This document shows, piece by piece, positions 1,654-21,439 of a stretch of 64,000 nt of DNA. Each line of letters begins with the position of its first letter. Positions within the stretch are counted from its first letter, which is position 1. The stretch spans positions 1-64,000 of the forward strand of contig NZ_JAFBCW010000006.1 in the NCBI RefSeq assembly GCF_016907915.1, in the 5' to 3' direction. The stretch comes from Desulforadius tongensis (GTDB taxonomy: Bacteria; Bacillota; Desulfotomaculia; Desulfotomaculales; Desulfohalotomaculaceae). Under the pieces are notes generated by a model, which was not told the origin of the DNA, ran no database searches, and was given only the letters and a program-made list of their open reading frames with translations. The position numbers and the translations under genes were made by a program.

Positions 1654-2472
1654 TTAGCCTGAAATTAGCGGTCGGTTTGCCCCGCGGGCCACGTAACGGC
1701 TCAGGGCTCGCAATACCCTGCCGTTTAAACCCAGGTCAATGCCGCAGGTTCCTTTAAGTGCCCCGGCCAGTTCTTCCAGACAGGTGTTGCCGGCCCTCTC
1801 TCCCAGTCCACCGATAGTTGTATCTATATATCGAACACCTTCCTTAACAGCCGTAAGGGAATTAGCAGTGGCCAGGCCGAAATCGTTATGCCCGTGAAAC
1901 TCAATTTCAATGGTCAGGGTCTCTTTTAAACGACCAATAACCCGGGAAAGAGAAAATGGAGTCAGAACGCCAACGGTATCGCAGTATCGCAGCCGCTCGG
2001 CACCCATTTCCTGGGCCAATAATGCAAATTCCAGTAAAAAGCTTTCATCCGCCCGGGAAGCGTCTTCCGCCCCCACTGTAACCCGGCACCCGTAGTCGGC
2101 GGCATAGCGAAGCGCCCGTTTCAAACAATCCAGCACCCACCGGCGGGATTTAACCAGTTTATAGTAAATATGAATATCGGAAACCGGAGCCGAGATATGG
2201 AGATCTTTAACCCCGCATCCCAAAGATGCCCGGATATCAGCCAGCAGCAGGCGGTTCCATGTGGACACCCTGCTTTTCAGCCCCAGGTCGGCAATGGTTT
2301 TAATAGCAGCCTGCTCCACTTCCCCCATTACGGGTATACCGGCTTCAATCTGGTATACCCCCAGCCGGTCCAGTAATTTGGCAATGGTAACTTTTTCCCT
2401 GAAGTCAAATACCACACCCGGTGCCTGTTCCCCATCTCTCAAGGTGCTGTCCACAATGTATACTTCCTGCAT
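1654..2472 (-). CDS. nifV: Homocitrate synthase NifV, short form
   Basis: The predicted product condenses acetyl-CoA with 2-oxoglutarate to homocitrate, the organic ligand of FeMo-cofactor. The 272-aa product has the DRE-TIM metallolyase signatures: STLRDGEQAPG near the N-terminus, the metal-binding FHGHNDFG, and GGLGERAGNT. The start at 2472 is chosen because GGGGGGAA precedes it and the conserved EVYIVDSTLRDG follows at once; an in-frame extension upstream lacks homology. It is about 100 residues shorter than usual NifV (roughly 370-390 aa): the catalytic barrel is present but the C-terminal region is absent, and no separate C-terminal gene is in view. Split NifV is known in Clostridium pasteurianum. 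It is the last gene of the nif operon, 17 bp after nifB. Confidence 0.88.
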   Translation of the reverse strand: MQEVYIVDSTLRDGEQAPGVVFDFREKVTIAKLLDRLGVYQIEAGIPVMGEVEQAAIKTIADLGLKSRVSTWNRLLLADIRASLGCGVKDLHISAPVSDIHIYYKLVKSRRWVLDCLKRALRYAADYGCRVTVGAEDASRADESFLLEFALLAQEMGAERLRYCDTVGVLTPFSLSRVIGRLKETLTIEIEFHGHNDFGLATANSLTAVKEGVRYIDTTIGGLGERAGNTCLEELAGALKGTCGIDLGLNGRVLRALSRYVARGANRPLISG

Positions 2473-2489
2473 ACGTCTTCCCCCCGGTT

Positions 2490-3299
2490 TTAAACAAGCA
2501 TTCCCACCGCATCGGCTCTGCACTGGCGACAGTGTTCCATTTGAGAAATAATAAAAGCAAGCTTCTGACGCGCCAGGTGTATCTCTTTCCTGGTGGGACG
2601 TTCCAGCGCTGCAAACTCCGCTTGCGGAATCAGCGGCATCACATTCATGATATATGCCCCCAGGGCTTTTACCGCCCTAGCTATGTCCGCCAGATGATTA
2701 TCGTTAACTCCGGGAATGAATACAGTATTAATCTTCACTGTCATTCCCATTTCCGCTGCCTTTTTGATTCCTGCTTTTTGGCGACGCCACAACAGCTGCG
2801 CCCCAGCGGTTCCGTAGTATACTTTATTACGGTAAGAGATGTAACCGTAAATTTTACTGCCTACCACAGGGCAAACGGCATTTACCGTCACGGTTACGGC
2901 CTTGACCCCTGTATCTTGCAGCCGCTCAAGATTATCTTCCAACATAAGACCGTTGGTGCTGATGCATTTTATCAGATGTGGATACTGTTTATGCACCAAC
3001 TCCAAAGTCTCCAAGGTTTCCGGGTTGGCCAGGGGATCCCCGGGACCGGCAATACCCACAACTCGAATACGATGATCCTTTTTCACCACCTCGGATACAC
3101 GGTCCAGCGCTTCTCCGGGTGTTAATATCCGGCTGGTTACACCGGGACGGCTTTCATTCACACAATCATAAAGCCTGGTACAATAATGACACTTTATGTT
3201 GCAGCTGGGGGCTACCGGCAGATGGATTCTGCCGAACCAGCGGGCCGCTTTCTTATCTAAACAGGGATGCTGCCTGATTACCTCCCGTAATTCTGTCAT
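2490..3299 (-). CDS. nifB: NifB, radical SAM FeMo-co core synthase
   Basis: NifB builds NifB-co, the [8Fe-9S-C] core of FeMo-cofactor, using S-adenosylmethionine chemistry. The 269-aa protein has the radical SAM cluster motif CNIKCHYC (about residues 34-41), the NifB signatures NESRPGV and GIAGPGDPLAN, and the C-terminal CRQCRADAVG. It lacks the C-terminal NifX-like domain that many NifB proteins carry; that domain is instead fused to the neighbouring NifE. It lies between nifE and nifV in the same direction with short spacings and is surely part of the nif operon. Confidence 0.95.
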   Translation of the reverse strand: MTELREVIRQHPCLDKKAARWFGRIHLPVAPSCNIKCHYCTRLYDCVNESRPGVTSRILTPGEALDRVSEVVKKDHRIRVVGIAGPGDPLANPETLETLELVHKQYPHLIKCISTNGLMLEDNLERLQDTGVKAVTVTVNAVCPVVGSKIYGYISYRNKVYYGTAGAQLLWRRQKAGIKKAAEMGMTVKINTVFIPGVNDNHLADIARAVKALGAYIMNVMPLIPQAEFAALERPTRKEIHLARQKLAFIISQMEHCRQCRADAVGMLV

Positions 3300-3320: not shown

Positions 3321-4982
3321 TCACAAAACACTGGAACACCATTTCAATGCCTCGGATAAAGGCCCTTCCTTTTCCAACACCGTCAACCCGGTATTGCCCG
3401 CCTGCTTCCGGGCGCATTCTCCGGCCCGGGTACACAGCACTGCCCGGCAATCTGCCAGTAAATCTATGCGCTGCCGGACTCCGTCCCTGCCGCCGGAATC
3501 CTGATACGAAACACTCTCTTTTCCCGCAGGCCGTCTTATTTCCAGCAAACTCACACTGTTGGGAGTTAACTCAAAAATCATAAACTGCTCAGCCCTGCCG
3601 AAGTGTTGGTCAATGGTTAGGCCATTGCCGGATGCTACGGCCACCTTCAATTTAGAAACCTCCCGTCTACTCTGTGCTAATCGCCAAACCGGCGCGCCCA
3701 TTATCCCGCTTACTTCCCGGGCCAAGTTTACAAAACCGTTAAACCCGGCAAAAGGGCTCATTTCCTGTGGAAATACCAGGAACGGTACACCTAATTTATG
3801 AGCCATGTATTTTTCCTTGGTTCCCCCCACCAGGAGGTCAGGCCGGTATTTAGTTAAGAGTTCTTCCAGTTCCCGGTCGTGGGCATCATCCATTAATAAT
3901 ACACCTTCTTTAACCTTATCCCCGGCCTCCCGGTAATCCTGGCGGCAGCCAAACTGGGAGCCAGCCATTATCACTTCCATACCCAGTTCTTGAAAAGCCT
4001 TAGCCATGGAACCCATCCGGGAAGCACCGAAGAATAGGGCCACCCGCCTGCCGGCCAGCCCGGGCAAAAAAGGTTCTATCTCCCGGCGGGCTTTCTTCAC
4101 ATCCTGGGCAATTACTTTCTCAGTCTTATCTGACCCAAAAAACTCCCCAACAGCTCGCAGTGCAGCAGTGGTTTCTTCCAGGCCAAAAAACGATACTTTT
4201 AGAAACGGTATATGAAAACGATCATGCATAGCTTCAGCCAGAGCCTGCCCTGTACGGCGACAGTGGACAATATTTAATTTGGCCCGGTGAGAGTTAGCCA
4301 TGGCAGTTGTCGAAGCGCGTCCCGAAAAAGTACAAATGATATTAATTCCCAGCTGTCCCAGTAATGCCTCAATTTCTCCTAAATCACCCTGTACATCAAA
4401 CTCCCCCAGAATGTTTACCGTATTATCCAAGGGTGGTTCTTTCTTATCTCCTTTACCGATAAAATGTTCGAGCAATACATTTACGGCAATATCGTGACCG
4501 GCTGCCTGGCTGGTGCCGCAAAAGCCGGGGCAGTTCACCGGCACCACCGGTAAGCCCAAGTCCGTAGAAGCGCGATTACAAATGGCAGACAGATCCTCAC
4601 CGGTGATCCCCACCACGCAGGTAGCGTATACTATAACGGCACGTGTACCGGAAAATTGCCGAACGGCTTCGCGAATCGAATTATATAACTTATCCCCGGC
4701 CCCAAAAACAATGTCACGTTCCGCCAGGTTCGAGGAAAATATGCGGTAGTTGGTGCGCCGGACGGTGCGCCCGTAGTAGGCACACCCCACCGGGCCATGT
4801 ACCAGGTGAACCACATCGGGAATGGCGGCCAGCATCCACCGCGCCCCGTAAAAGGCACATGCCCTTTGAGAAATCACGCCCGGCAGGGTAGACCTGCCGC
4901 ATTCCGGCTTTTCCGCTGCATCCTTTTTATTTAAAACCACATGCCCACGGCGGTTGGGTAATAATTCTAAGGAAGCTGACAT
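3321..4982 (-). CDS. nifE: NifE fused to a NifX-like cofactor-binding domain
   Basis: NifE pairs with NifN to form the scaffold on which FeMo-cofactor matures. Residues to about 435 are NifD/NifE-like, with RACAFYGAR, HGPVGCAYYG and ATCVVGITGEDL holding the cluster cysteines, plus NCPGFCGTSQ. Residues from about 440 to 553 form a dinitrogenase cofactor (NifX/NafY-like) domain, VAVASGNGLTIDQHFGRAEQ. The position equivalent to the NifD TGA is an ordinary TGT Cys codon here. Start at 4982 follows GAGGGTG with good spacing. It lies after nifN, the reverse of the common nifE-nifN order. Confidence 0.92.
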   Translation of the reverse strand: MSASLELLPNRRGHVVLNKKDAAEKPECGRSTLPGVISQRACAFYGARWMLAAIPDVVHLVHGPVGCAYYGRTVRRTNYRIFSSNLAERDIVFGAGDKLYNSIREAVRQFSGTRAVIVYATCVVGITGEDLSAICNRASTDLGLPVVPVNCPGFCGTSQAAGHDIAVNVLLEHFIGKGDKKEPPLDNTVNILGEFDVQGDLGEIEALLGQLGINIICTFSGRASTTAMANSHRAKLNIVHCRRTGQALAEAMHDRFHIPFLKVSFFGLEETTAALRAVGEFFGSDKTEKVIAQDVKKARREIEPFLPGLAGRRVALFFGASRMGSMAKAFQELGMEVIMAGSQFGCRQDYREAGDKVKEGVLLMDDAHDRELEELLTKYRPDLLVGGTKEKYMAHKLGVPFLVFPQEMSPFAGFNGFVNLAREVSGIMGAPVWRLAQSRREVSKLKVAVASGNGLTIDQHFGRAEQFMIFELTPNSVSLLEIRRPAGKESVSYQDSGGRDGVRQRIDLLADCRAVLCTRAGECARKQAGNTGLTVLEKEGPLSEALKWCSSVL

Positions 4983-5001: not shown

Positions 5002-6345
5002 TCAACTAAACTCAAGCAAACTGTTAACGATAAGGTCTAATAAGCTGAGGCTCCCGCGGTAACCTACTATAGCGCGCCGGTGATACCCTACCCTATCATA
5101 AACGGGAAAACCCAGCCGAACCACGGGAACCTTTACCTTGCGAGCAATTTCCACACCGTGGGACGGTGATAAAATGATATCCGCACGTCTTTCTTTAAGG
5201 GCTGACTCAAAGTCATAAAGGTCTCCACCCGAAATAACGACGGGATTATAGTCATATTCCCGCGCAATAACTTCCACTTCCCTTACAAATTCGTCGCTGG
5301 CGGTGCTGCTCATCACCACCGCCGGCTCCATTCCCAACTCGCAGATGAATCGGGTTGTACCGGCCACAATGTCCGGGTCTCCCACTAGGGCCGCGCGCTT
5401 CATCATAGTGTACTGGCAGGAATCAGCCATGGCGTCCAGCAGGATTCCTCGCTCCCACTCCAGCGAGGATGGTATTTCCTTACCGATCAGTTTTTTTACG
5501 CTGTCCAGGAACCGGTCCGTGTTGGCTATTCCCACCGGTAGAGGTCCCAACAGCGCGGGAATATTGAATTTCTTTTGCAGGTAGCGGGCCCCCGCACCCC
5601 CGGCGTGCCGGCAGAGGGCAATGGTTCCCAGGGAATTAGCGGCATCCGCCAGCTCTTTAACAGAAGTCCCCTCTTTTGGCAAACGGCTCATTGATATTTC
5701 CAGGGGAGTATCAAGTGTCCGCGAAATATCATATAGCACAAGGAAGGGAACATCCATTTCCACTAAAATATGTTTTATCTCTTCAATATCTCCCGGGTTA
5801 ATTATTCCGGGTATGACATTTAACTTACCATTGGAATCCTTGCCCGGCTGCACCAGGTATTCCAAAACAGCACGGGATGCATTATCGTATCCCTTAATAT
5901 GACTGCCTGCATAGCTGGGGGTATGAATGGGTACGATTTTTACCTGCTTCGAGCTAACATTTATTTTCCCGTTTAACTCTTTTTGCACTTCCCTTATTAT
6001 GGAATCAATATTATCACCGATGGTTTCACTGAGACAGGTACTGACCACACCAATAAACCGCGGGCTATAGCAAAGCAAAAGATTCTTGATACCCTCGACC
6101 AGATTCCGCCTGCCTCCGAAAACAGCCGCATCCTCGTGAAAGGATGTGGCGGCCACTTTAACCGGCTCTCTAAAATGCCGGTTAAGCAGGTAGCGTACAT
6201 AACTGCAGCAGCCCTGTGAGCCGTGCACCAGGGGCACAGCCCCCCGGATGCCCAGGAGAAGGTAGGCAGCACCCAGGGGCTGGCAAGTATGACAGGGATC
6301 TATAGTTACCACCCGCGCACCGGTTGCGGCAGCCAATTTATTCAC
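5002..6345 (-). CDS. nifN: NifN, FeMo-cofactor scaffold beta-like subunit
   Basis: A 447-aa NifK/NifN-family protein, the expected partner of NifE in the cofactor assembly scaffold. Motifs include DPCHTCQPLGA, HGSQGCCSYVRY, VSTCLSETIGDN, TPSYAGSHIKGYD and the C-terminal VGYRGSL. It is shorter and more diverged than the adjacent NifK, which supports NifN rather than a second NifK. The start is uncertain: GTG at 6345 abuts GGAGGT directly, while a TTG at 6336 has better spacing to it. It sits 20 bp after nifK. Confidence 0.85.
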   Translation of the reverse strand: MNKLAAATGARVVTIDPCHTCQPLGAAYLLLGIRGAVPLVHGSQGCCSYVRYLLNRHFREPVKVAATSFHEDAAVFGGRRNLVEGIKNLLLCYSPRFIGVVSTCLSETIGDNIDSIIREVQKELNGKINVSSKQVKIVPIHTPSYAGSHIKGYDNASRAVLEYLVQPGKDSNGKLNVIPGIINPGDIEEIKHILVEMDVPFLVLYDISRTLDTPLEISMSRLPKEGTSVKELADAANSLGTIALCRHAGGAGARYLQKKFNIPALLGPLPVGIANTDRFLDSVKKLIGKEIPSSLEWERGILLDAMADSCQYTMMKRAALVGDPDIVAGTTRFICELGMEPAVVMSSTASDEFVREVEVIAREYDYNPVVISGGDLYDFESALKERRADIILSPSHGVEIARKVKVPVVRLGFPVYDRVGYHRRAIVGYRGSLSLLDLIVNSLLEFS

Positions 6346-6367: not shown

Positions 6368-7834
6368 TTAAAGCTGCTGCGTGCGGTCGTCGGGATAACT
6401 GTAATCCAGAAGGGCGTTTACTATTTCCGCCAGCAAGAACTCGCCCCCGCGGTAACCCACCACCGGCCTCTTCTGGTAACCTACCCTGTCCCACACCATC
6501 AGCCCGACTCTAACCAGCGGCACTTCCAATTCGTTGGCAATGTCCACTCCCTTGGAATTTCCGATAATCATGTTAACCCTTATCTTTTTTAGGTGCTCTT
6601 CAAACTCAAAGAGATCCCCACCGTTGAAAATCTCGGGATTACATTGGTACTCCCGGGCAATATCCTCGATTTCTTTAGTAAAGATTTTACTGGGCGTGCC
6701 GCTCAGAACCGCCACTGGTTCCATTCCCAGTTCACAGACAAACCGGGTCACTCCCACCACAATATCCGGATCGCCGAAAACAGCCACTTTTTTCATCATG
6801 GTATGGTGGAAAGTATCGGCCATAAAATCTAACAGCAGACCCCGTTCATCTAAAAGTTGTTCAGGAACCGGTATTCCAGTTAGTTCACTAATATTTTTAA
6901 GAAAGATATCAGTATTATGCACACCTAACGGCAGGGGGCCCAAAATTGCTTTAACGCCAAATTTTCTTTCCAAGTACTGCGCCCCGAGCCCCCCTTCATG
7001 GGGGCACAGGACCACTGTCCCCAGTGAATTAGCCATGTCCTTTATCTCATCCGCCGGCGTTCCTCCCTTGGGATAACACGGTATAGACTGGGGAGGGCGC
7101 AGAGGGGCGTCAAAAACACCGGCAATATCAAACATCATTATGCTTTCCGTGCCCATTGCTTCCAACAGGTGCTTAATCTCCCGGATATCCCCGGGATTGA
7201 GCATCCCCGGTATGATATTTACCTTGTTGTTGGGAGCAGTTTTTTCCGCGGCCAGAGTCTCGATAAAGGCTCTGGCCGCCCTGTCATACCCGGCTACATG
7301 AGAACCAGCAAAACTGGGAGTGTTAATGAGAACAATTTTTGTCTGCGACGATATTTCCTCCCCCAGCTCTTCAACCAACCGTTTCCTGGCCATTTTGATA
7401 AAACTCACCATATCGTCACCGATAATTTCACTGGAGCAGGTGGTAACCACGCCTATGACGTCCGGCCGGTAGCGCACCACCAGGTTGCGAATACCTTCAA
7501 TAAAATTTTTCCGCCCGCCGAAAACTGCGGCATCTTCATGAAAAGAAGCGTTGGCAATCATATTCGGTTCCTTAAAAATGCGGCAGAATGTGTAACGAAC
7601 GTACGTCGTGCAGCCTTGGGCCCCCTGGACAAAAGGAATACCCCTGTGCACGCCCATGGTGGCGAACATGGCCCCCAGCGGCATACAAGTCCGGCAAGGA
7701 TTGATTACCACCGCCCGGTTGGCTACCCGCACCAGAGTAGGATCCCTTTCTATATATTCTTCGGTCATGGGAATTCTATCTATCTTAAGCTGGTCGTAAG
7801 TAATACCCTCTATTGGTATTTCCTGAACTCGCAT
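6368..7834 (-). CDS. nifK: Nitrogenase MoFe protein beta subunit NifK
   Basis: The beta subunit of dinitrogenase shares the P-cluster with NifD. Cluster cysteines are visible in NPCRTCMPLGA, GAQGCTTYVRY and VVTTCSSEIIGDD, all with ordinary Cys codons; the nearby TPSFAGSHVAGYD is also typical. The 488-aa length is normal. The ATG at 7834 is preferred over one seven codons upstream because AGGAGGAGGGAG lies just before it. It follows nifD by 24 bp. The intact partner subunit argues that the nif operon is under selection. Confidence 0.95.
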   Translation of the reverse strand: MRVQEIPIEGITYDQLKIDRIPMTEEYIERDPTLVRVANRAVVINPCRTCMPLGAMFATMGVHRGIPFVQGAQGCTTYVRYTFCRIFKEPNMIANASFHEDAAVFGGRKNFIEGIRNLVVRYRPDVIGVVTTCSSEIIGDDMVSFIKMARKRLVEELGEEISSQTKIVLINTPSFAGSHVAGYDRAARAFIETLAAEKTAPNNKVNIIPGMLNPGDIREIKHLLEAMGTESIMMFDIAGVFDAPLRPPQSIPCYPKGGTPADEIKDMANSLGTVVLCPHEGGLGAQYLERKFGVKAILGPLPLGVHNTDIFLKNISELTGIPVPEQLLDERGLLLDFMADTFHHTMMKKVAVFGDPDIVVGVTRFVCELGMEPVAVLSGTPSKIFTKEIEDIAREYQCNPEIFNGGDLFEFEEHLKKIRVNMIIGNSKGVDIANELEVPLVRVGLMVWDRVGYQKRPVVGYRGGEFLLAEIVNALLDYSYPDDRTQQL

Positions 7835-7858: not shown

Positions 7859-9268
7859 TTAAAGAAACTTCCATACCGGTGCGTATATTGCCTGATAAAT
7901 GTCCCGGGCAAAGTTAACAAAGCCAGCATAGCCGGCATACGGCCCTTTTTCATAGGAGTGAGAATTAAGCGTAGGAATGCCCATTTTGCGGCCGATAAAC
8001 TTTTCCTTGAGGCCGGTCAGAAAAAGATCCGGCTTATACTCATGGAGCATTTCCTCTATTTCAAACTCGTTGGGATTGTCAATAATTAGTACACCGTCTT
8101 TGGCCCGGGCATTAATCTTTTCGTAATCATCTTCATGGGCAAAGGTACAGGCGCCTGCCACAACCTCCATACCAAGTTCTTCCATAACCTTAATCCAGTG
8201 CCACACCCGGGGTGCACCTACATAAATTGCTACCTTCTTCCCCTTCAACCGTTCCCGGTAAAAGGAAAGGGCCTTTTCTACCCTGGCAGTCTCCTCGGCA
8301 ATAACCTTTTCGGCCTGCTCTTCCAGCCCGAAAAATTTAGCCGTTCTGCGCAGGGCATTGGATGTCTGCTGAATACCGAACAGGGAGCAGCCAACATAAG
8401 GTACCTCGAACCCCTCCTGAATTAACTCCGCAATGTAGGTGGCCGATCGCTGGCAGTGAACGACATTTAACTCGGCATCGGGCATCTTAATCAGATCTTC
8501 TATCCTGGAATTACCGGTAAAAGTGACAATTACCCGTACCCCCATTTTTTCAAACAAGGGTAAAATCACTTTTGTATCCCAGTCAATGTTGTACTCGCCC
8601 ACTAAAGCGATGTCATAAGGAGTTTTCTCCTCTTCCTTCATGCACAAGTCCGGCCGCTTTTCCCTTAACTTTCTAATCTGCCGGAAAAACTGGTGATTGG
8701 CAACGTGGTGACCCTTGGATTGGCTTACCCCCGAACATCCCGGCGCTTCAGCATAGAGAATAAATTTTCCCGTTTCTTCCTCCAGCTGCCGCGCCACGGC
8801 AGATACGTCGTCCCCTATTAGGCCGGTGGTACAGGTGGTATAAATAACCATTCCCCTGGCTTCAGGAAACATGCGGAAGGCCTCCAGGCAAGCCTTCTTT
8901 AATTTTTTCATTCCCCCGAAAACAACATCTTTTTCTTCCATATCGGTAACAGTACAGTAACGGCGGTTGAACGCCACGTTGGTCAATTTACCCGGGAGAG
9001 CCCAGGTATAAAGATCAGACAGGTGGCGCCGCGTACCCCAGGTATACCAGGCGCACCCCACCGGGGCATGCACCATGTGTATAACATCGGTAATAGGTCC
9101 GCCCACGACCCCGCGTGAGCCGGCAAAAGCTCACCCGCGCTCGGTCATATCACCCGGAACGGTTTTTGTATTACAAAGCGGGATTACCGGATTTTTTTGG
9201 TCGGTAATGTAAGTGTGTTTTCCCCTTTCGGGAATTAATTCATCACATTTTAAAGTTACCAGCGGCAT
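7859..9268 (-). CDS. nifD: Nitrogenase MoFe protein alpha subunit NifD with in-frame TGA at P-cluster Cys
   Basis: The alpha subunit of dinitrogenase binds FeMo-cofactor and half of the P-cluster. From ATG 9268 (AGGAGG nine bases upstream) the frame runs 469 codons with one internal TGA at 9131-9133, codon 46. The context is MTERG-TGA-AFAGSRGVVGG, where relatives have RGCA(Y/F)AG; this is A. vinelandii alpha-Cys62, a P-cluster ligand. The other two ligands are Cys72 (APVGCAWY, 26 residues later as in A. vinelandii) and Cys146 (TTCTTGLIGDD). FeMo-co ligands are present: Cys272 (VVHCQRS) and a His near 437 (NSHSYEKGPY), with GVSQSKGHH between. There is no frameshift or other stop. If TGA is read as selenocysteine the protein is full length; otherwise it is a nonsense allele. 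Sequence style is of the NifI-associated (group III-like) NifD. Recalled from memory, not searched: no selenocysteine NifD is known to me. Confidence 0.9.
9101..9133 (-). promoter_or_regulatory. Candidate bacterial SECIS element in nifD
   Basis: After the TGA (9133-9131) come 10 nt, then GCTCACG (9120-9114), a 6-nt loop CGGGGT (9113-9108), and CGTGGGC (9107-9101). The arms form seven base pairs including one T-G wobble. The apical loop starts 17 nt after the TGA and has G at its second position. This fits the bacterial SECIS consensus as I recall it (loop about 16-37 nt downstream, a G among the first two loop bases). A competing hairpin (TGAGC with GCTCA) includes the TGA itself. The stretch also encodes conserved residues, so some pairing could be chance. 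Confidence 0.5.
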
Positions 9269-9281
9269 CTATATACCCTCC

Positions 9282-9647
9282 TCAGCAAATTGCTTCCCTG
9301 CCTCTTTCCTGCGTCCGCACCCGGACAGCTTCTTCCACCGGGCAAACAAAGATCCTCCCGTCACCGACCTCGCCGGTGCGGTTGACTCTGGTGATTACTT
9401 CTACCACCAGAGATACATCTTCGTTGTTGACAACCAGGGAGATAAGTCTTTTAGGAATATATCTCATACTGCTTTCCTGGCTTAATACTTCTGAACTGAT
9501 CTTGAAAGAAACTTCCTGCTTCAGGCCTTTCTGTTTACCCCGCCCCATGACCTTACAGGCAGTCATTGCCGGAAAACCGAGGGTACTCAATACTTCTTTG
9601 GTCCTGGTCATTTTATTAGTGCGGATAACGGCCACTATTTCCTTCAC
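9282..9647 (-). CDS. nifI2: NifI2, PII-like nitrogenase regulator
   Basis: A PII (GlnB) family protein of the NifI2 type. NifI1 and NifI2 together inhibit dinitrogenase in response to ammonium and 2-oxoglutarate in methanogens and some Firmicutes. The 121-aa protein has the GRGKQKG T-loop start, a longer variable insert than NifI1, and the C-terminal GEVGDGRIFVCPV. GTG at 9647 is chosen because GGAGGT precedes it and the family begins there (KEIVAVIRTNK); an ATG at 9671 overlaps the nifI1 stop. The position between nifH and nifD is diagnostic. Confidence 0.92.
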   Translation of the reverse strand: MKEIVAVIRTNKMTRTKEVLSTLGFPAMTACKVMGRGKQKGLKQEVSFKISSEVLSQESSMRYIPKRLISLVVNNEDVSLVVEVITRVNRTGEVGDGRIFVCPVEEAVRVRTQERGREAIC

Positions 9648-9667
9648 TGCTGCAGCACCTCCCCATT

Positions 9668-9985
9668 TCATAAGCCTTTGGCGCCCGTCCTTACGGTATA
9701 GGCTTCTTGCACCGGGCTGATGAACAGTTTTCCGTCACCAAAATTCCCCGTATATGCGGAACGATTAATAATATCAATAATTTGCTCTACATTTTCATCT
9801 TCAGCCACCAGCATAATCATTACTTTAGGCAGTTCATCATAATAAACGCTGCCCACATGAATGCCCTTTTGCTTACCGCGGCCCACTACGTCCATTTTGG
9901 TTAATGCTACGTACCCGGCATCAGCCAGGGCATCAACTACCTCCTCGGTTTTTTCGGGCCTTAAAACAGCTCGAATCATTTTCAT
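9668..9985 (-). CDS. nifI1: NifI1, PII-like nitrogenase regulator
   Basis: A 105-aa PII-family protein with IRAVLRPEKTEEV at the N-terminus, VVGRGKQKGIHVG at the T-loop and YTGNFGDGKLFISPV at the C-terminus. It is expected to act with NifI2 on NifDK for post-translational ammonium switch-off. ATG 9985 follows AGGGGG with eight-base spacing; longer starts add residues unlike the family. It lies 13 bp after nifH and is followed closely by nifI2. Confidence 0.93.
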   Translation of the reverse strand: MKMIRAVLRPEKTEEVVDALADAGYVALTKMDVVGRGKQKGIHVGSVYYDELPKVMIMLVAEDENVEQIIDIINRSAYTGNFGDGKLFISPVQEAYTVRTGAKGL

Positions 9986-9998
9986 AATCTTAACCCCC

Positions 9999-10841
<843 letters not shown>

Positions 10842-12177: not shown

Positions 12178-12489
12178 TTATTCGTTACTTTTCGAAGCAG
12201 CACTAAGAAGAATATTTACCACCATCTTCCTTAGCTCATCCTTAGGCGTATCCTTATACCTTTTATAAATTTCTCTAGCCTTCTCTCCCCCACCGCTCAG
12301 GCCCGACCCTTTCTTTTCAACATTTAAAAAATTTGCGAATCTCATTATCAGAGAATCGGGGGTTCTTCCCATTATCTCGGCAATTCGGGAATAATTTACC
12401 CCAAGTTCTTCGTAACCGAATCGATAAAGATAAAAAGCGATTATGTGTTCCTCATTGCTCCATATTCTTTTAACCAATTTTAGCTTCAC
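12178..12489 (-). CDS. Small putative DNA-binding protein at end of DISARM operon
   Basis: A 103-aa protein with WSNEEHIIAFYLY, then RIAEIMGRTPDSLIMRFANF and GLSGGG. This pattern matches the helical domain often found at the N-terminus of restriction-type HNH nucleases (WT.EE..LAL.LY ... LGRTP.SV.MKL.NF ... GL). The family resemblance is from memory. The nuclease part is missing, so this is a stand-alone version that may recognise DNA. It starts 25 bp after drmC in the same direction and is probably co-transcribed. The function is unknown and it is not one of the named DISARM components. Confidence 0.6.
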   Translation of the reverse strand: MKLKLVKRIWSNEEHIIAFYLYRFGYEELGVNYSRIAEIMGRTPDSLIMRFANFLNVEKKGSGLSGGGEKAREIYKRYKDTPKDELRKMVVNILLSAASKSNE

Positions 12490-12514
12490 ACCTTCCTCTA
12501 TTATATATCCATCG

Positions 12515-13402
12515 CTAAAAACTATCGATGCTTCTAACGTAACCGCTCTTTAATAGGTAATTGACCAGATCATGTAATATCTTGACGTTTCCACCTTCAA
12601 TTTTTACCCCAAGTTCCAGTCGGTTCCCCAAACCGTATTCGGTTAAATTAGCACTTCCTAAATATGCAACCTTACCCTTATCCGCTATAATCATCTTGGC
12701 ATGAAAATCGAAAAAATTCCCTTCCGATTCATTCTTGGATTGGTACAGATAAAGCTTTATACGGGAACGTAGGTCCTTCTTTTTCACTTCAATAAGAAAC
12801 GGTTCGAGGGCTTCCATATTATCCCTTCTTTCCCCCGTTAGGTATCTGGTTATTATCCTTACCTTAACACCCCTCTGCATGCTATATATTAAAGCATTTT
12901 TCAGTTCTTGAACTGCATAACGGTCGAAAAAGGGATTAAGAATTATCAGCTCTTCTTCAGCATTCGATATAATACAGTGAAGTTCGGAAAAAATCGGAAG
13001 TACTTCGGCTACCCTTATTCTTCTGATACACCTGTAATCATCCGGTATATTTCCCATCAGCACGTATCTATTATCGGGTATTAGTCTGTCTTCCAGTTCC
13101 CCGAGATTATTAATTATCACCTCCGCCTCCGACACATTCCTTAGAAGCTCGAGCTTATTTTTTAACCGGTAAGCAATTTGATCCGAACTGACATGATCCT
13201 TAACAATATCAATTATTCCCTTCCTTTTTAGCTCCAGTACGAAGGTGTAAATTAGGGGGTCGTCTCCCTCATTGAAGTATCGAAGTATTTCCCCGACCGT
13301 AAAGCAATTCTTTTTCTCACCGCCTAAGTACAGAATGATACCGCTCAATCTTTGGAGAAGTTTCGGTCTGCTTCTAAATGCCATTGCCAAATTAACGCTC
13401 AT
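12515..13402 (-). CDS. drmC: DrmC, phospholipase D-like DISARM protein
   Basis: A 295-aa protein with one HKD motif of the phospholipase D/nuclease superfamily, FHAKMIIADKGKVAYLGSANLTEYG, located in the last third. The N-terminal part looks like a winged-helix segment (FTVGEILRYFN, LIYTFVLELKRKGI). DrmC is a DISARM component that was found not essential for protection in the described Bacillus system. Its start overlaps the drmB stop by four bases, implying translational coupling. Confidence 0.85.
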   Translation of the reverse strand: MSVNLAMAFRSRPKLLQRLSGIILYLGGEKKNCFTVGEILRYFNEGDDPLIYTFVLELKRKGIIDIVKDHVSSDQIAYRLKNKLELLRNVSEAEVIINNLGELEDRLIPDNRYVLMGNIPDDYRCIRRIRVAEVLPIFSELHCIISNAEEELIILNPFFDRYAVQELKNALIYSMQRGVKVRIITRYLTGERRDNMEALEPFLIEVKKKDLRSRIKLYLYQSKNESEGNFFDFHAKMIIADKGKVAYLGSANLTEYGLGNRLELGVKIEGGNVKILHDLVNYLLKSGYVRSIDSF

Positions 13403-15255
13403 CTACGAAACGCACCCTTCAGGTTCTCCCAGAAGCCTTTAATCTTTCTTCCATTTAATTCTCCTCCATATAGAAACACCCGGCCCAGCTGTCTGTTAAA
13501 ATATGAACAGGTGATTTCAGGTAGATGCATACAACCGTGACACGATCCGCCTTTAGAAATGCATACGGGATCGTAAACGCAAAGTCTGAGTTCCGGGTCA
13601 AGGCATTTCTCCATCAATTCCGCAAGACTTTGTTCAAATAGAGTATGAAAGCCACCTATGGTAAATACCGTCTTGTTACTGTAAATTACAAAGGAAAGTT
13701 CCCGTGGAAATATGTATTCCGCCATTCCCATCTTCTCGAAGCCGCTTATCAGCGAAGCCGCCCCTATAAAGCAGTGGGAGAGGGAATGCAGTAGGTTAAA
13801 AACGTAATATGTAACTTCATCTTCTTCATTTAGCATCGCATATCTATCAATATTAGCTATATTCTGTAGGTAATGCATCTTCAGCTTAGCTTTATCGGAA
13901 TTATACAGATTAACAGAAAGACCGTTGCCCTTTAACCATTCTGTAACTGCTAGGGGATCAAGTCTAAATAAAAGTGCTTCCGTTCCTCCCCTATCAACGT
14001 AAACGGGTACCCTTCCGTCCCTACGTCTAGGAAATGCTTTAATAACAGTTTCTATATTCCTTCCGTTACGGTTGTCTACCGGTTCAAATGATACCCTCGT
14101 ATACCCGAAAACAGCCGTAATAACCGGAAATTCTTCTATAAGGTGAATGTCCTCAAAACCGAACTTTTTAACCGCATCCTCTGCTGCTAAAAGTATCCCT
14201 TCACTGCCGGGTCGCTCTTTTCTTAATCTTTCCGCCCGTTGACTTATGTTTTCGTTTTTAAGCTTATTGAGAACAAAAGTATATTCGCTAAGCTCCGTAA
14301 AACCGGTATCGTCTATCCCTTCCGTATTAATTTTGCCTATATCGTTATCTTTTTCTATTTTTGATTTAATTTTTGTGAGTTCTTCCTCTAAGTATTCCTT
14401 TACCGGCTCGGGCAACTCCGGGTTTTTAAGCTCACGTTCGTAAGTTTCCATTTTATTTCTTTCTTCTTTAGTTAGGACAGATCTTGGTGATCTTAACCCC
14501 AAATATTCTGACATAATCCATTTCTTTTTATCAATATCAGCAACAGATATTCCGTCGCCTACATCTACCAGCCTTATATAATGCGGGTAATACGTTAAGT
14601 TGGCTCTGTGAGGAGTAAGAACCATACTACAATCTTCTTTACCCTTAGAAGAACATTTCACGCACCTCTTAAATACAGGAGCAATTTCTGCATTACATTT
14701 CAGGCATACCCATCTGAAATCTCTGGCCTTCTGGCTCCTTCTTTCGTCCAGAGCTATGTGATTATAACCGTGTTTGTTACACCCGTACGGAATGCTTAAC
14801 GGCTCTATTTCACCGCATTGGTGTACGAACACGTGATAGATCTGCCTTAGTCTTCCATTATCACCGCAGTTATGATTGCATATCACCCCAGGGTTTCTGG
14901 CCTTCAACTTCTCATGTGATTCGTACTGATAAACCCTACCGCATTTTATACATCTGAATACAAGGGGAAAAATATCAAACCTTACGTTCTCTGGTTCTTC
15001 GAAAATAAACCCGTTATAATCGGAATAAAAATCTTTCTTATCCGGAAATCCTATAACCCTTCCTTTAGACCACCTGGGGTTAGAAGACGTGCCGTAAATA
15101 TATCTTCCTATTTCCTGTAGTATTCTTTTTTCATTTATGTTTCTCTCCTCAATCCCATCTATATCCGTCACAATACAAATAACGTTACCGCCATCGTAAT
15201 CAAATGTGGTACCGGGCAGGTAATTGTATAAAACCTGCTGCTTGCCTCTATTCAT
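13399..15255 (-). CDS. drmB: DrmB, DUF1998 DISARM protein
   Basis: A 618-aa protein with several zinc-binding-like cysteine groups: FRCIKCGRVYQ near residue 98, VCLKCNAEI and RCVKC near 185, and a C-terminal CVYDPVCISKGGSCHGC near 565. The last is the hallmark of DUF1998. DrmA and DrmB form a complex that engages DNA in DISARM (known for the family). The gene is flanked by drmA and drmC in the standard order, 38 bp after drmA. Confidence 0.88.
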   Translation of the reverse strand: MNRGKQQVLYNYLPGTTFDYDGGNVICIVTDIDGIEERNINEKRILQEIGRYIYGTSSNPRWSKGRVIGFPDKKDFYSDYNGFIFEEPENVRFDIFPLVFRCIKCGRVYQYESHEKLKARNPGVICNHNCGDNGRLRQIYHVFVHQCGEIEPLSIPYGCNKHGYNHIALDERRSQKARDFRWVCLKCNAEIAPVFKRCVKCSSKGKEDCSMVLTPHRANLTYYPHYIRLVDVGDGISVADIDKKKWIMSEYLGLRSPRSVLTKEERNKMETYERELKNPELPEPVKEYLEEELTKIKSKIEKDNDIGKINTEGIDDTGFTELSEYTFVLNKLKNENISQRAERLRKERPGSEGILLAAEDAVKKFGFEDIHLIEEFPVITAVFGYTRVSFEPVDNRNGRNIETVIKAFPRRRDGRVPVYVDRGGTEALLFRLDPLAVTEWLKGNGLSVNLYNSDKAKLKMHYLQNIANIDRYAMLNEEDEVTYYVFNLLHSLSHCFIGAASLISGFEKMGMAEYIFPRELSFVIYSNKTVFTIGGFHTLFEQSLAELMEKCLDPELRLCVYDPVCISKGGSCHGCMHLPEITCSYFNRQLGRVFLYGGELNGRKIKGFWENLKGAFRR

Positions 15256-15293
15256 ACCGTTTTACCACCCCTCCTAAATTAAATCACACTATT

Positions 15294-18200
15294 TTATTTC
15301 CTTAATAGTTGTTTTAAAAGGCTTCTTACCCTATAACTTTCAGTAAAATATATAGGCTCGTCCGTATCCCTAAGGCTTCTCATCGGTTTATGAATTAACG
15401 GCGGGTAACCTAAAGCTAACGGTAGACTTTCTTTTGTTCTTTCGTTTGCAAGTATGTATACAATATCCGTCAGTTTTTTATCAATTTCACTTTTAAATTC
15501 GCTTCCCGGGGGTAGATCGGTTCTGTAGGCATCGTGTAAATACTCCTTAACTTCATCCATATCGAGCGAGGAAATTACCGGATACCATGCTTTCTTTTTA
15601 AACAAACTCTTATTATGTAGTCTTGAATACCTGTTCAGTATGAGGGCACTGAATATCCCGGGCAGGGTTTTATCGATACTGAACTTTGACCATCTATTTA
15701 TAGCCGGAGGCTCTACTAATCTCTCCGTATATTCGTGATATTTAGAAAAATAATGATAGTGACTTCTATCCCTCTCTCTAGCTGGTGCAAAACAGATAAT
15801 CGATATTCCGGGACTTTTTCTTCCAACACGGCTGGAAGCCTGGATATATTCGGCCGTTTGCCTGGGCATGCCGAAAAAGACCATGAAATTGAATCTTTCG
15901 ATATCCACACCGTGGCTGATCATGCTCGTAGCGGTAACGGATCTAATTCTGTCCTCGGGCTTTTTATTTTTGTAGTCCTCCTGCATTTCCTTGAGTAATG
16001 CGGTAATGCGATATCCCTCGGTACCGCCCGTCATCATTTCATTTCTTACCGCAGTATATCCGTCTCTGGTCAGATAGAGGTTGATCTGACTGGCAATACT
16101 CTCCGCTACCTGATCCCCTCCCCTTTTCGTAAGAACGTACGTCAGGCTAACCTCATACTCATCCAGAATTTCTTCCACCTGCTTATCGTATAGCGATTCC
16201 GTTACTCCTATAGCATCCGCAAATTCGGCAGCGGAAAGCTTCCTTAACCTCTGAATTTCTCTGTGGAAGTACCACAGTATTTCAACCGTAGAGTTGATGT
16301 GCGTTTTGTTATGAGGCATTATCCCTAGAAAGTATCTTCCTATCCTCCCGGTATCCGTATCGCTGTAAAAGGACTCCTCCCATGAAGGACCCGGTACCGG
16401 AAATCTATAGGGCTCATCCCTGCAGTATAGTTGATCTACGTGATATTCGTAACGCTTTATGGTGGCCGTCGATGCTATGTTCTTCCAGGCCCTACCGCCG
16501 GATATATCCTTCTGCATTTTTACGATAAACGTCTCGTAATGAGAATCAAAAGCCCCCAGTTCTTCCTTTACAAGGTGGATCTCATCCTGAACCTGCAGGG
16601 TCGGTACCATTAGCCGTTTTACGGAATCATCAACCCTTGCCACCTTTCTTCCGCCGCAATACCGGCATTTATCTTCCCATAGGTATCCATGCTTATCGCA
16701 TTTATATCTTACGTCTCCGAACAGGTTGCCAAATTTGGTCTGATAACCGCATAGTGCTATCTTATCAACCGTAGATACTATTACCGTAGGCAGGTATCTG
16801 TATATTTCGTCGTCAACAATGTATATAGGCAGTGCCCTACCTCCCCAGCTGCAAACGGTACTGTCGGAGGTACATTCATGTACCAGTCTCCACTCATCAA
16901 AATCAAATCTGATTTTAACGCTTTCCCTGCCGCAGAAGGGACATACGTGTACCTTTCTGTATTTTTTATCCCTATCGGGATCATCATTAATTTGTTCTGC
17001 ATTCGATCTATAATAAATATTATTTTGCGTTTGGCTACTGCCTACCCAAAGACCAACGCTGAAGGGTTCACCCTTTATTGCTCTTTCCTCCCTAATCAGT
17101 TCCGCAGCACCTATAATTCCCGTAAGTCTTTCCAGCTGCTGGGCGCTAAGAAGCCTTAAAGGAAATCTGAACAGTGCCGTTAATCCGGCAGTCTTTCCTC
17201 TTAACCTGTCAAAGAAGGCATTACATATCGTTAGGCCCAGATATGCCTCCGTCTTCCCGCCGCCCGTGGGAAACCATAACACCACTGGACTTTCAATAGA
17301 ATTACTATCCTTAAAATCATCCGTCCAATGCTGGGCGGCAAGGTCGGGCAGCTGGGAAACTATAAACACCAGCTGGAACGGTCGCCACCCCTCGTATCCC
17401 CTTCCGGCAATTTCGTTCTTTTTTATAAAGGCCTCGTTCATTACCCTAAATGCTTTATTTAGCATTTCATACTTATGATTTTTCAGTACTTCTATTCCCT
17501 TTTTATACCTATCGATTTCTGCCCTGAAGTTATCCAGATCCCGTTTAAATTCCTCTTCATACCTTGCATCCTTCAAAAATTCGTTCTTATTTGCTTCCCA
17601 GTACCCGTAATAATCCTCCATATCTTTCAAAAGTTCCTCTAAAACATTTATCGGGTCATCGCTTAAACTCCGAAAGGTTAACTCCGTCAGCTTTCTACCT
17701 CCTATTTTTTTAGGAAGTTGAGTCCTGGTACCGTACCTTTTCTGTCTCACCACCGGTGCATTAACAGTTTTTAATCCTCTGCCGTGGTCATCCCCGTAAA
17801 GCGGCTCAACGGTACAGTTTAGTCCTATCGCCGGCATTATAGTATCGTATCTATAACTATCCTTTAGAGAATTAAACTCGAAAGGTATTAACTCCGCAGA
17901 AACAAACGATGTCTCGATAGAAGCATCAAATATAAAGCTATCCTCCATCTTCTCGGTACCGACGGGATCCCTATCCTCTCCAGTATTAACCAGTAAAACC
18001 TTTAAAAGGTAAACATCATTTTCAACGGGATTAAGCTCGATATGCAGTTCGAACTTCCATTTCGGCAGGTTCACATCTCCATGCGTCGCATCCCTAATTA
18101 GTTCGTTAAAAAATTCTTCGTATTTATCAGGACTCTCATCTGGATTCTTGGACAGCTTCCTTTCGGGTATTTTTTTGAATGCCTTAGAATCTCTTTTGAT

Positions 18201-18713
18201 TTCTTCATAAATGTCTTCCATAACCCGCTTAAACGGTTCGTCGGAAGAACTTATTATTTTTTTACCTTCCCTTATCAGTAATGATAAATTTACAGTTATA
18301 AAAGGAAAATTCGGTCTTAAACGCTTAAATACCACCGCCAGTTCCCTGGCTCCCTTTATCCTTTTCTGTTGTTCCAAATCGGGAACTATTCTGTAATATA
18401 GGGACATATTAGGTCTGATTTTTAGCATCGCATCCCGGTTGCTGATTTTCAACCTGCACTCGAAACCGAGTGCATAGGGAGAAAGTCTGGAATGAAACTC
18501 GGATCTCAGTTCGTTTTCCGACAGTTCTACTTCCGATACGGCAGAATTGGGTCTCAGGCTCCCGACAAAATAGGTGTCTCTGGGACGTTCGTAAAGACAG
18601 TACTCTCCATCCTCACCCTTACCCGATCCCGAAGTGCATTCGGTAATCCTTTTAATTAAATATTCACATAATTTCTCCTTTACGGCATATTCATCGGCCT
18701 TCGATAAGCTCAT
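15294..18713 (-). CDS. drmA: DrmA, DISARM helicase
   Basis: A 1139-aa superfamily 2 helicase. Walker A FPTGGGKTEAYLG lies near residue 481, a DEIH box (QVQDEIHLVKE) near 708, and motif VI-like IQASSRVGRKSPG near 959, preceded by SMISHGVDIERF. A four-cysteine zinc-like group (HVCPFCGRE, YKCDKHGY, CRYCGGRK) lies between the two helicase halves. DrmA is the DNA translocase or unwinding core of DISARM. It lies 14 bp after drmE. The composition of this region is AT-richer than the nif and cob regions, which suggests horizontal acquisition; this was judged by eye. Confidence 0.92.
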   Translation of the reverse strand: MSLSKADEYAVKEKLCEYLIKRITECTSGSGKGEDGEYCLYERPRDTYFVGSLRPNSAVSEVELSENELRSEFHSRLSPYALGFECRLKISNRDAMLKIRPNMSLYYRIVPDLEQQKRIKGARELAVVFKRLRPNFPFITVNLSLLIREGKKIISSSDEPFKRVMEDIYEEIKRDSKAFKKIPERKLSKNPDESPDKYEEFFNELIRDATHGDVNLPKWKFELHIELNPVENDVYLLKVLLVNTGEDRDPVGTEKMEDSFIFDASIETSFVSAELIPFEFNSLKDSYRYDTIMPAIGLNCTVEPLYGDDHGRGLKTVNAPVVRQKRYGTRTQLPKKIGGRKLTELTFRSLSDDPINVLEELLKDMEDYYGYWEANKNEFLKDARYEEEFKRDLDNFRAEIDRYKKGIEVLKNHKYEMLNKAFRVMNEAFIKKNEIAGRGYEGWRPFQLVFIVSQLPDLAAQHWTDDFKDSNSIESPVVLWFPTGGGKTEAYLGLTICNAFFDRLRGKTAGLTALFRFPLRLLSAQQLERLTGIIGAAELIREERAIKGEPFSVGLWVGSSQTQNNIYYRSNAEQINDDPDRDKKYRKVHVCPFCGRESVKIRFDFDEWRLVHECTSDSTVCSWGGRALPIYIVDDEIYRYLPTVIVSTVDKIALCGYQTKFGNLFGDVRYKCDKHGYLWEDKCRYCGGRKVARVDDSVKRLMVPTLQVQDEIHLVKEELGAFDSHYETFIVKMQKDISGGRAWKNIASTATIKRYEYHVDQLYCRDEPYRFPVPGPSWEESFYSDTDTGRIGRYFLGIMPHNKTHINSTVEILWYFHREIQRLRKLSAAEFADAIGVTESLYDKQVEEILDEYEVSLTYVLTKRGGDQVAESIASQINLYLTRDGYTAVRNEMMTGGTEGYRITALLKEMQEDYKNKKPEDRIRSVTATSMISHGVDIERFNFMVFFGMPRQTAEYIQASSRVGRKSPGISIICFAPARERDRSHYHYFSKYHEYTERLVEPPAINRWSKFSIDKTLPGIFSALILNRYSRLHNKSLFKKKAWYPVISSLDMDEVKEYLHDAYRTDLPPGSEFKSEIDKKLTDIVYILANERTKESLPLALGYPPLIHKPMRSLRDTDEPIYFTESYRVRSLLKQLLRK

Positions 18714-18727
18714 AAAATATCCCCCCT

Positions 18728-21247
18728 TTAAACCGTAAAAATTATTCCCGTATATCCGGGCTTTACGTACTTTATTGCTTCGGATATTTCCTCTATCGTT
18801 TTAACCGTTAAAGCATCCCTAAAATCAGCCATGGATAACCCCCACTCTACAAGTTCGTCATCTGGTTCGACTAATAAGTTAGTTGAAGAAGAAGCTATTA
18901 TGACCCTATTAAGCTGTACTGCTACCACCCTATGAATCCTTCTCAGCCTCTTCATGGCCCGGTATATCATCTTCCAGCTCTTCGTTAGCTCGTCCAACCC
19001 CAATACGATTCCTAACCTTTTTATATCCTCGGGATCTTCAGGCCCCATAACATCTCCCCTGATCCAGTTACCGATAGTCGCGGAAGATGTTATGCGGCTT
19101 CCTAAACGTACGAGCATACTATGAATTTCTTCATATGTTAACCCTCTTCTGTAAAATGCATCGTTGATACTTCTCTGCCAGAATCTGATATACTTCGTAT
19201 CCAGATCTACCTGCGGCTGTTCTTCATTTTTTTCTAATATCAGGTCGTACAGGCTGTTCCTGGCATTACCCCTGATTATAACTACCCTATCGCCAGCCTT
19301 TAATTTTTTTACCTTAATGCTATAAATAGCTCCGCTAACTCCTTCAATTTTCTTTAGATTATCGTCGGCGGCGCAGAACATTCTGCTCCCGTCCGTAAAT
19401 ATAATTTCCCTTGCTTCTACGGTATGAGTACCGCTACGGTGTACCGCCTCTCCTCCCCGTACGGAAAAGAGCGGTATAAGGCCGTCTTCGCTAATTGAAG
19501 TAGCAACTCCAGACAGCATAGCAAGCAGGTCCGAGTGCAAGCCTGTTTTTCTAACCTTATCACCCAGAATATTCGATACGGCATCTGCCAGTTCTCTCAA
19601 AAAATCTTCGTCTTCTTCAAATACCTTTGCTTTTAAAAGAAATTCTTTCTTATTACGTCCCGTTTGGATGATTCTGTTTCTAACCCCCTGCAGCATAATC
19701 TTAAGGCCACGCATTTCCTCATCATACAGAACCATTATCGTTCCCTTAGCAGGCGGTATCAGAATGATTTCCGGTAATTTAATCCAATCAATTCCGGTAA
19801 TAACAACCGTATCGGGATTAACGCCATCATTATGTAGCTCTTTAACCAGCCGTTTTAGGCCCTTATAGGAAGTTACGTATAAACCCGCTCCTTCAGGACC
19901 ATACTTTTCCCACCCGAATTTTTCGGAGAGAAATTTTTTCAAAGCCATGGCCGATGTAGCATTAATTGTAACAATAATCGTTTTGAGCCCCGATTCCACC
20001 TGTCTATTAACAATATTCAGAATATTATTCATCTTCTCGTTGTTCTCATCCAGCAGTTCGTTAATCCTATGAAATACTCTGCTCGTCTCGTAAATAAGAA
20101 CCTTCATGTCTCCATCATCCAAATACATCGTACGGGATACCGATGTAAGTTCATCCAGCAGGTCCAAAATGGTGAAGGTATTTCCCGTTTTTCCAGCAAT
20201 AATATCGTATAATTCCGGTTTTACAGGAAGCTCCATAAGCATTCTGTATGCATACGAAGCCCTTCTGATAACTTCTTTAACCTCCCTACCGTAATCGAAT
20301 TTCTTAAGAAGCTTTAACATTTTCCTTAAATTCTTACCTAATTCGTTAAAATCCTTATCAAGGCGATCTTCACACCTGATTATCATCGGCATCCTGCGCT
20401 TCTTCATATTTCGGATCTCATAAATCCCCGAAGAAAACGGGGAATTTTTGCCGCCGTCACAAATGTCGCATTTATTCTCATGTGCCCTTATCATTCCGGA
20501 AGACCAAAGAAATACCTCGGCATCGCCGTTACGTACCTTCGGAATTCTATAATCGGTTATATTATCAAAAATATGTATAATCGGAATACTTCCATCACCT
20601 ACCACGGGGTCACTCTCTCTAATGTGAGAATAATCGCAGAGTATATAGTCGCATTTCGGGCAGCGGTTTACTACATCGGGTGATGAAGAAAGGTAAAATA
20701 CGGGAGACTGTCCGTCGTATCTTCCGAAGTAATCGCGGCTACCGATTATCGATACGTTTCCGTCCTTACGTACATAACCGGCAGGAAAAAAATAGTGCAC
20801 GGGTAGTTTTTGCGGAATTCTTTCCCTTATATACCTTTTTTTAATATAATAACTCCAGTACAGGTGACAGTTATAGGGATCATCCATATTCAAGTCTAAA
20901 CCTTTCTTATACTCGTCTATAAGAAGGTTAATCTTTCTAATAGAAAGTTTCATAACATCTTCAACGTAAATGTATGTTTTTTCAAGAAATTTTCTTATAA
21001 CGCTGGATCTTGCGATAAGCAGCATACTAGGACGTTTCTTGGGATCCTTTTTGGTAGGAATATTTACGGTGTAGTCATGCAGTACTAATTCTATAGCAAG
21101 GGGTACGATTAGATAACCGAACGGTCCGGCAATTACGGAACTCCTTCCTTTTTCATATATCTTCTTACAGTAATCTATAGTTACAGTTTCGAATTCGTGA
21201 AGATTGATTTCTTCATCACGGTAAGTTAACCGGTAAATTCTTCCCAA
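18728..21247 (-). CDS. drmE: DrmE, class 2 DISARM protein of unknown function
   Basis: An 839-aa protein without an obvious catalytic motif. It has a cysteine cluster RCPKCDYILCDY near residue 192 and CDICDGG near 258, a central region with alternating strands and helices (TIIVTINATSAMALKKFL, TVVITGIDWIK), and a late segment SSATIGNWIRGDV. Identity is assigned mainly by position and size: class 2 DISARM has drmE directly before drmA together with a cytosine methyltransferase. Biochemical function is unknown. Confidence 0.75.
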   Translation of the reverse strand: MGRIYRLTYRDEEINLHEFETVTIDYCKKIYEKGRSSVIAGPFGYLIVPLAIELVLHDYTVNIPTKKDPKKRPSMLLIARSSVIRKFLEKTYIYVEDVMKLSIRKINLLIDEYKKGLDLNMDDPYNCHLYWSYYIKKRYIRERIPQKLPVHYFFPAGYVRKDGNVSIIGSRDYFGRYDGQSPVFYLSSSPDVVNRCPKCDYILCDYSHIRESDPVVGDGSIPIIHIFDNITDYRIPKVRNGDAEVFLWSSGMIRAHENKCDICDGGKNSPFSSGIYEIRNMKKRRMPMIIRCEDRLDKDFNELGKNLRKMLKLLKKFDYGREVKEVIRRASYAYRMLMELPVKPELYDIIAGKTGNTFTILDLLDELTSVSRTMYLDDGDMKVLIYETSRVFHRINELLDENNEKMNNILNIVNRQVESGLKTIIVTINATSAMALKKFLSEKFGWEKYGPEGAGLYVTSYKGLKRLVKELHNDGVNPDTVVITGIDWIKLPEIILIPPAKGTIMVLYDEEMRGLKIMLQGVRNRIIQTGRNKKEFLLKAKVFEEDEDFLRELADAVSNILGDKVRKTGLHSDLLAMLSGVATSISEDGLIPLFSVRGGEAVHRSGTHTVEAREIIFTDGSRMFCAADDNLKKIEGVSGAIYSIKVKKLKAGDRVVIIRGNARNSLYDLILEKNEEQPQVDLDTKYIRFWQRSINDAFYRRGLTYEEIHSMLVRLGSRITSSATIGNWIRGDVMGPEDPEDIKRLGIVLGLDELTKSWKMIYRAMKRLRRIHRVVAVQLNRVIIASSSTNLLVEPDDELVEWGLSMADFRDALTVKTIEEISEAIKYVKPGYTGIIFTV

Positions 21248-21439
21248 AACCCACTCGTCTCCCTCTCTAATTTATAAAACTTATTATTTCTTGTTATATA
21301 ATTCTCAAATACATGTTAAAATCCTTCTGCTTTTGGCAATTAATGTAACTTATCCGGAAATTTTTTAAAATAATAAAAAATATGTAAATATAAGCAGCAA
21401 TGAGGTAGTAAATGGATAGCAATAAAAAAAGAAGGACTT
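21248..21439. other. Intergenic, DISARM methyltransferase to drmE
   Basis: AT-rich 190 bp with no gene. A promoter for drmE may lie here, but no clear -35/-10 pair was identified. Confidence 0.3.

Follow-up and report, generated by a model that had tools for sequence, protein, structure and literature searches.

The in-frame TGA of Desulforadius tongensis nifD is a predicted selenocysteine codon at a P-cluster ligand position of nitrogenase

The nifD gene of Desulforadius tongensis has an in-frame TGA at codon 46 that is very probably a selenocysteine codon, read by SelB with the help of an RNA hairpin and predicted to place selenocysteine (Sec) among the ligands of the nitrogenase P-cluster. 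The gene lies in the window, by which we mean the whole stretch of 64,000 nucleotides that was analysed (contig NZ_JAFBCW010000006.1, positions 1 to 64,000): it has a recoding signal and a conserved reading frame, and the genome has the decoding machinery. In the proposed mechanism, SelB loaded with Sec-tRNA-Sec would bind the hairpin 17 nt downstream of UGA 46, Sec would be inserted at this codon and translation would go on to a NifD of 469 residues, in which the selenolate of Sec46 would take over from the thiolate of alpha-Cys62 in binding an Fe of the P-cluster. The gene is a further case of the already predicted Sec62-NifD, and the case for such proteins is now much stronger.

From its ATG (9268-9266) and Shine-Dalgarno sequence (Table 1), the nifD frame is open for 45 codons, meets the TGA and continues to a TAA at 7859 without any other lesion; an earlier reading of the window from its sequence only had described the gene in identical terms. 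The protein scores 565.3 bits against TIGR01862 (nitrogenase component I alpha), above the cut-off of 486.05, and 470.3 bits against TIGR01282 (Mo nitrogenase NifD equivalog), below the cut-off of 653.55, and by its sequence is a short, Group III-like NifD. In an alignment with solved nitrogenases, residue 46 falls on the Cys that is conserved in their ERGC motif, the P-cluster ligand alpha-Cys62 of A. vinelandii; a role of Sec46 as P-cluster ligand is predicted from this alignment. Ligation of the P-cluster by alpha-Cys62 is established (PMC3760896). The other ligands are kept, namely Cys72 and Cys146 of the P-cluster and Cys272 and His437 of FeMo-co, and so are Gln183, His188 and Arg354; all seven residues are present in 52 of 52 aligned NifD sequences. 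The sequence-only reading had placed the TGA at the first P-cluster Cys, 26 residues before the next one and with all remaining NifD motifs present, and this holds: Sec46 and Cys72 are 26 residues apart.

Table 1. Features of the nif region and of the neighbouring island in the window
Feature	Position	Strand	Remarks
nifV, homocitrate synthase	1654..2523	-	
nifB	2490..3299	-	
nifE, C-terminal NifX-like domain (NifX/NifB-tail)	3321..4982	-	profile match
NifK/NifN-like paralogue	5002..6345	-	nifN position
nifK, beta subunit	6368..7834	-	Ala at beta-92 position (QGAQGC)
nifD, alpha subunit of nitrogenase component 1	7859..9268	-	TIGR01862; PDB matches 9spz_A, 5n6y_A
Conserved 18-nt segment CGCGGGGTCGTGGGCGGA	9098..9115	-	identical in 17/19 TGA-nifD genes
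Predicted bSECIS hairpin GCUCACG-CGGGGU-CGUGGGC	9101..9120	-	loop 17 nt past UGA, 7 bp stem, 6 nt loop, G at position 2
TGA codon 46, predicted Sec	9131..9133	-	position of A. vinelandii alpha-Cys62 (P-cluster ligand)
nifD Shine-Dalgarno AGGAGG	9277..9282	-	
nifI2, PII-like regulator	9282..9671	-	
nifI1, PII-like regulator	9668..10015	-	
nifH	9999..10838	-	TIGR01287, 461 bits, above cut-off
DrmC	12515-13402		DISARM-type island
DrmB	13399-15255		DISARM-type island
DrmA	15294-18713		DISARM-type island
DrmE	18728-21247		DISARM-type island
C5 cytosine methylase	21440-22588		DISARM-type island

Homologues were searched in the order and the phylum of D. tongensis, in Thermodesulfobacteriota and in GTDB contigs, and merging of identical proteins left 52 distinct NifDs: codon 46 is TGA in 19 of them, including the one of the window, and TGC or TGT in 33. 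The sequence-only reading had considered a chance stop at exactly this codon unlikely and had proposed to look for homologues with TGA in the same column; the 18 further distinct NifDs, all from Bacillota and Thermodesulfobacteriota, bear out the argument. The carriers are both isolates and MAGs, the cultured ones being Desulfofundulus thermosubterraneus DSM 16057, Carboxydothermus islandicus SET IS-9, Thermosulfurimonas dismutans S95 and Desulfovirgula thermocuniculi DSM 16036, and within the order of D. tongensis the TGA is found in half of the genomes that have this NifD (10/20). Cys-type NifDs of the clade (Moorella, Desulfofundulus thermobenzoicus, Methanoregulaceae) are 63-80% identical to the protein of the window and mostly share its cluster order as well as beta-Ala92, but have TGC or TGT at codon 46 and either lack a SECIS or keep only its remnants. 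In one genome of the Moorella group (G125, L130), a truncated nifK adjoins a Cys-type nifD that is intact, and no nifH, nifE or nifB was found within the fetched stretch: this nif cluster is decaying.

SelB scores above the cut-off in each of the 19 TGA genomes, while all seven tested genomes without SelB have a Cys-type NifD. Since most of the Cys genomes also have SelB, the protein is necessary but not sufficient for a Sec-NifD, as remarked before by Howard et al. (PMC3760896).

When a phylogenetic tree of the 52 NifD proteins is constructed with IQ-TREE and the residue of codon 46 masked, the Sec proteins fall into three separated groups (window and Desulforudis; Desulfofundulus/Carboxydothermus; Thermodesulfobacteriota), with L039 of Desulfovirgula thermocuniculi as a lone further TGA case. 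The tree needs at least nine changes between Sec and Cys, and its starred branches by themselves force nine. One Sec genome from outside the order of D. tongensis (G114; L103, L069) has a NifD that is 86% identical to the one of the window, together with the same N-like gene, a likeness that is likely the result of horizontal transfer.

The strongest new evidence for recoding is the RNA signal after the TGA. Besides the 17 TGA genes with an exact copy of the 18-nt segment of Table 1, one more TGA gene is off by a single base. Synonymous variation was scanned in 15 thinned TGA genes (without L039) and in 26 Cys genes: in the TGA genes, codons +5 to +10 past the TGA have zero synonymous differences at a gene mean of 0.53, the lowest of 273 scan windows, whereas the same codons of the Cys genes come 329th of 354, their values being near the average or higher. 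A hairpin with at least 6 bp and GGU in the loop can be formed by 18 of the 19 TGA genes, but only by two of the 33 Cys genes and by 6-8% of synonymous recodings. In most TGA genes this hairpin is GCCCGCG-GGGU-CGUGGGC; in the window and in G114, the Ser codon TCA replaces GCC and the hairpin register moves two bases along, to the form listed in Table 1. Published criteria for a bSECIS are a loop of 3-9 nt with G in loop positions 1-2, an upper stem of 4-16 bp, a UGA-loop spacing of 16-37 nt and an MFE of at most -7.5 kcal/mol (PMC13188914), and the hairpin of the window lies within each of these limits; its MFE is -12.0 kcal/mol as a 27-mer and -8.8 kcal/mol for the hairpin alone, while a 54-nt piece folds otherwise. 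The stem barely varies and, the slipped register aside, there is therefore little base-pair covariation. L039 and L107 (Desulfovirgula thermocuniculi DSM 16036) have the TGA at the Sec codon, no recognisable SECIS and changes at conserved spots (SRDVV, GCARY): their TGA is possibly a true nonsense mutation, or it uses a different signal. A TGA at codon 46 is thus apparently possible without the signal, as L039 has no hairpin.

The genome of D. tongensis (2.58 Mb, 99.6% complete) was searched for the selenocysteine machinery, as the sequence-only reading had proposed for selA, selB, selD and tRNA-Sec, and all four were found: selA and selB adjoin each other on contig 32, tRNA-Sec has the anticodon UCA, and selD (G000:C25:1183-2106, L142) has an in-frame TGA of its own (SG-U-AAK), indicating that SelD is likely a Sec-containing protein and a second selenoprotein of this genome. 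A second intact nifD, which in the sequence-only reading would have spoken against recoding, was not found in the whole genome: there is one NifD, and the other matches are NifE, NifK and N-like homologues.

Past the TGA, dN/dS between TGA genes is 0.03-0.11, and 0.043 between the window and its nearest relative L035; the part ahead of the TGA gives comparably low values wherever they can be computed (0.09). The low values past the TGA argue that the read-through product is a maintained protein. Remnants of the signal are visible in Cys genes: L033, L046, L048 and L062 are one base away from the 18-nt consensus and L079 is two bases away, and all five sit inside Sec clades on the NifD tree, while the remaining Cys genes, among them L099 and L036 close to Sec genes, have three to seven differences from it. 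What the five nested genes carry resembles a SECIS left over from a former Sec codon, so that the most parsimonious reading is repeated loss, and Sec in NifD has probably been lost several times by change to Cys. Most likely, Sec-NifD and its SECIS have a single old origin and would have spread partly by horizontal transfer, the reversions to Cys leaving the SECIS remnants behind.

A nifD broken by a nonsense mutation or a sequencing error, in a gene that is decaying, would fit the reported lack of nitrogen fixation in D. kuznetsovii, whose nifD has the same TGA, and such genes were taken as fragmented in a paper of 2024 (PMC11206085). However, the same TGA codon is found in 19 distinct genes of two phyla, the frame past the TGA is under strong purifying selection, the invariant RNA segment is specific to TGA genes and the entire nif cluster of the window is open: we consider decay extremely improbable, and the presence of the TGA in isolates and MAGs alike, in 19 distinct genes, excludes a sequencing error in practice. 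There is hardly any room, either, for a restart of translation past the TGA or for a misreading of UGA as another residue. An ORF that starts from GTG 9106 does exist, but its product would be without the first P-cluster ligand and without residues 1-54, a conserved part of the protein, and a restart leaves the invariant hairpin unexplained. TGA is also an ordinary stop elsewhere in the cluster, where it terminates nifE, the N-like gene, nifI1 and nifI2; a global reassignment of the genetic code is ruled out by these four neighbours.

It is conceivable, albeit rather unlikely, that the Sec codon serves mainly for regulation, as a gate at which the selenium supply sets the amount of NifD made past codon 46, with no catalytic role of its own for Se. 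The codon is early (46/469) and depends on SelB and the hairpin, and Sec and Cys swap freely within the clade while the other ligands are constant, which is expected if the chemistry tolerates both. Against this, the codon is not an arbitrary early one but falls on an invariant cluster ligand, and Sec in most known selenoproteins occupies the position of a functional Cys. A regulatory role was suggested by Howard, Kechris, Rees and Glazer in 2013 (PMC3760896).

These authors had predicted Sec at alpha-62 in Ca. Desulforudis audaxviator, Thermodesulfatator indicus and Desulfotomaculum (Desulfofundulus) kuznetsovii, and had found sel genes and a bSECIS in all three (PMC3760896); the statement of the sequence-only reading that no case was described is thus incorrect. 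They discussed P-cluster ligation and a possible Fe:Se P-cluster. Sec would, in the sequence-only reading, change the redox behaviour of the P-cluster; these authors noted that terminal Se ligands cause no appreciable potential shift in model Fe-S compounds. Their text names the codon as amber TAG, unlike the TGA found in the nifD of the window (PMC3760896). Like the NifD of the window, the three are short Group III proteins with Sec as residue 46, and the four cases share beta-Ala92, a bSECIS and the sel genes; the window differs by its NifN-like gene, which is absent from the three species, and by the two-base shift of the hairpin with the Ser codon TCA in the stem. A 2026 review lists a nitrogenase component I alpha (TIGR01862, WP_153802866.1) with the motif RxU (PMC13188914): it is of the same family and has the same Sec position motif (RGU), but is an entry from GenBank annotation without analysis. 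Our literature search found no protein-level evidence for Sec in NifD.

The enlarged set turns the 2013 remark on three species into a statistically strong case and corrects two of its side claims. Sec62 was reported to be covariant with beta-Ala92 (PMC3760896), but in the fetched NifDK loci every member of the clade with readable nifK (that of L078 is truncated) has beta-Ala92, be it of the Sec or the Cys type, and beta-Ser92 occurs only in the outgroup rows L082-L086. Ala92 is therefore a marker of the clade and at most a precondition for Sec, and was rejected as a marker of Sec itself. Likewise, nifN was reported to be absent from all three Sec species (PMC3760896); most clusters of the clade are without nifN, whether Sec or Cys, but in the window and in the Sec genome G114 nifK and nifE are separated by a NifK/NifN-like gene, which contradicts its absence as a general trait of Sec clusters.

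D. kuznetsovii 17T, a carrier of the TGA-type NifD, was reported to be unable to fix nitrogen, and "fragmentation" of NifD was named as part of the reason why Desulfofundulus fixes nitrogen weakly or not at all (PMC11206085). This fragmentation is probably a misread Sec codon. The enlarged set is a warning that annotation pipelines read such nifD genes as broken. The report on strain 17T means that some Sec-type enzymes may be inactive or conditional. Tentatively, and with somewhat more doubt than confidence, we propose that the D. tongensis enzyme is a working nitrogenase with a selenolate Fe ligand in its P-cluster and altered electron transfer, and the best candidate yet for an active Se-nitrogenase, because its cluster, unlike the three published ones, has a NifN-like partner for cofactor assembly. 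The P-cluster is usually thought to be ligated by cysteine thiolates, and a natural Sec ligand would be a single-atom spectroscopic probe (Se) on the route of electrons through nitrogenase. [NiFeSe] hydrogenases and Sec formate dehydrogenases are likewise anaerobic oxidoreductases with Sec in place of a metal-ligating Cys, but have unrelated folds and Sec on the active-site Ni or Mo/W, whereas the Sec of NifD would bind an Fe of an electron-transfer cluster. The main value of the paired Sec and Cys NifDs, which form an evolutionary series, is as testable natural nitrogenase pairs, of which L040 and L046 (Desulforudis) are a close one.

The nif cluster of the window has the order nifH-I1-I2-D-K-(N-like)-E(X)-B-V. 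The sequence-only reading had listed nifK, nifE, nifN, nifB and nifH as intact: all genes are indeed open, but the product of the gene called nifN scores below the curated NifN cut-off and is only NifN-like. In this protein the residue equivalent to beta-92 is the Ser of a GSQGC motif, and the sequence groups outside the NifK of the clade; the position of the gene suggests a NifN-like role. Elsewhere in the window there is a CRISPR array at 720-1279 with nine repeats of the CRISPR-DR2 type, and these repeats were the only match when the whole window was searched with Rfam at gathering thresholds. Beside the nif genes, a DISARM-type anti-phage island extends from 12178 to 22588.
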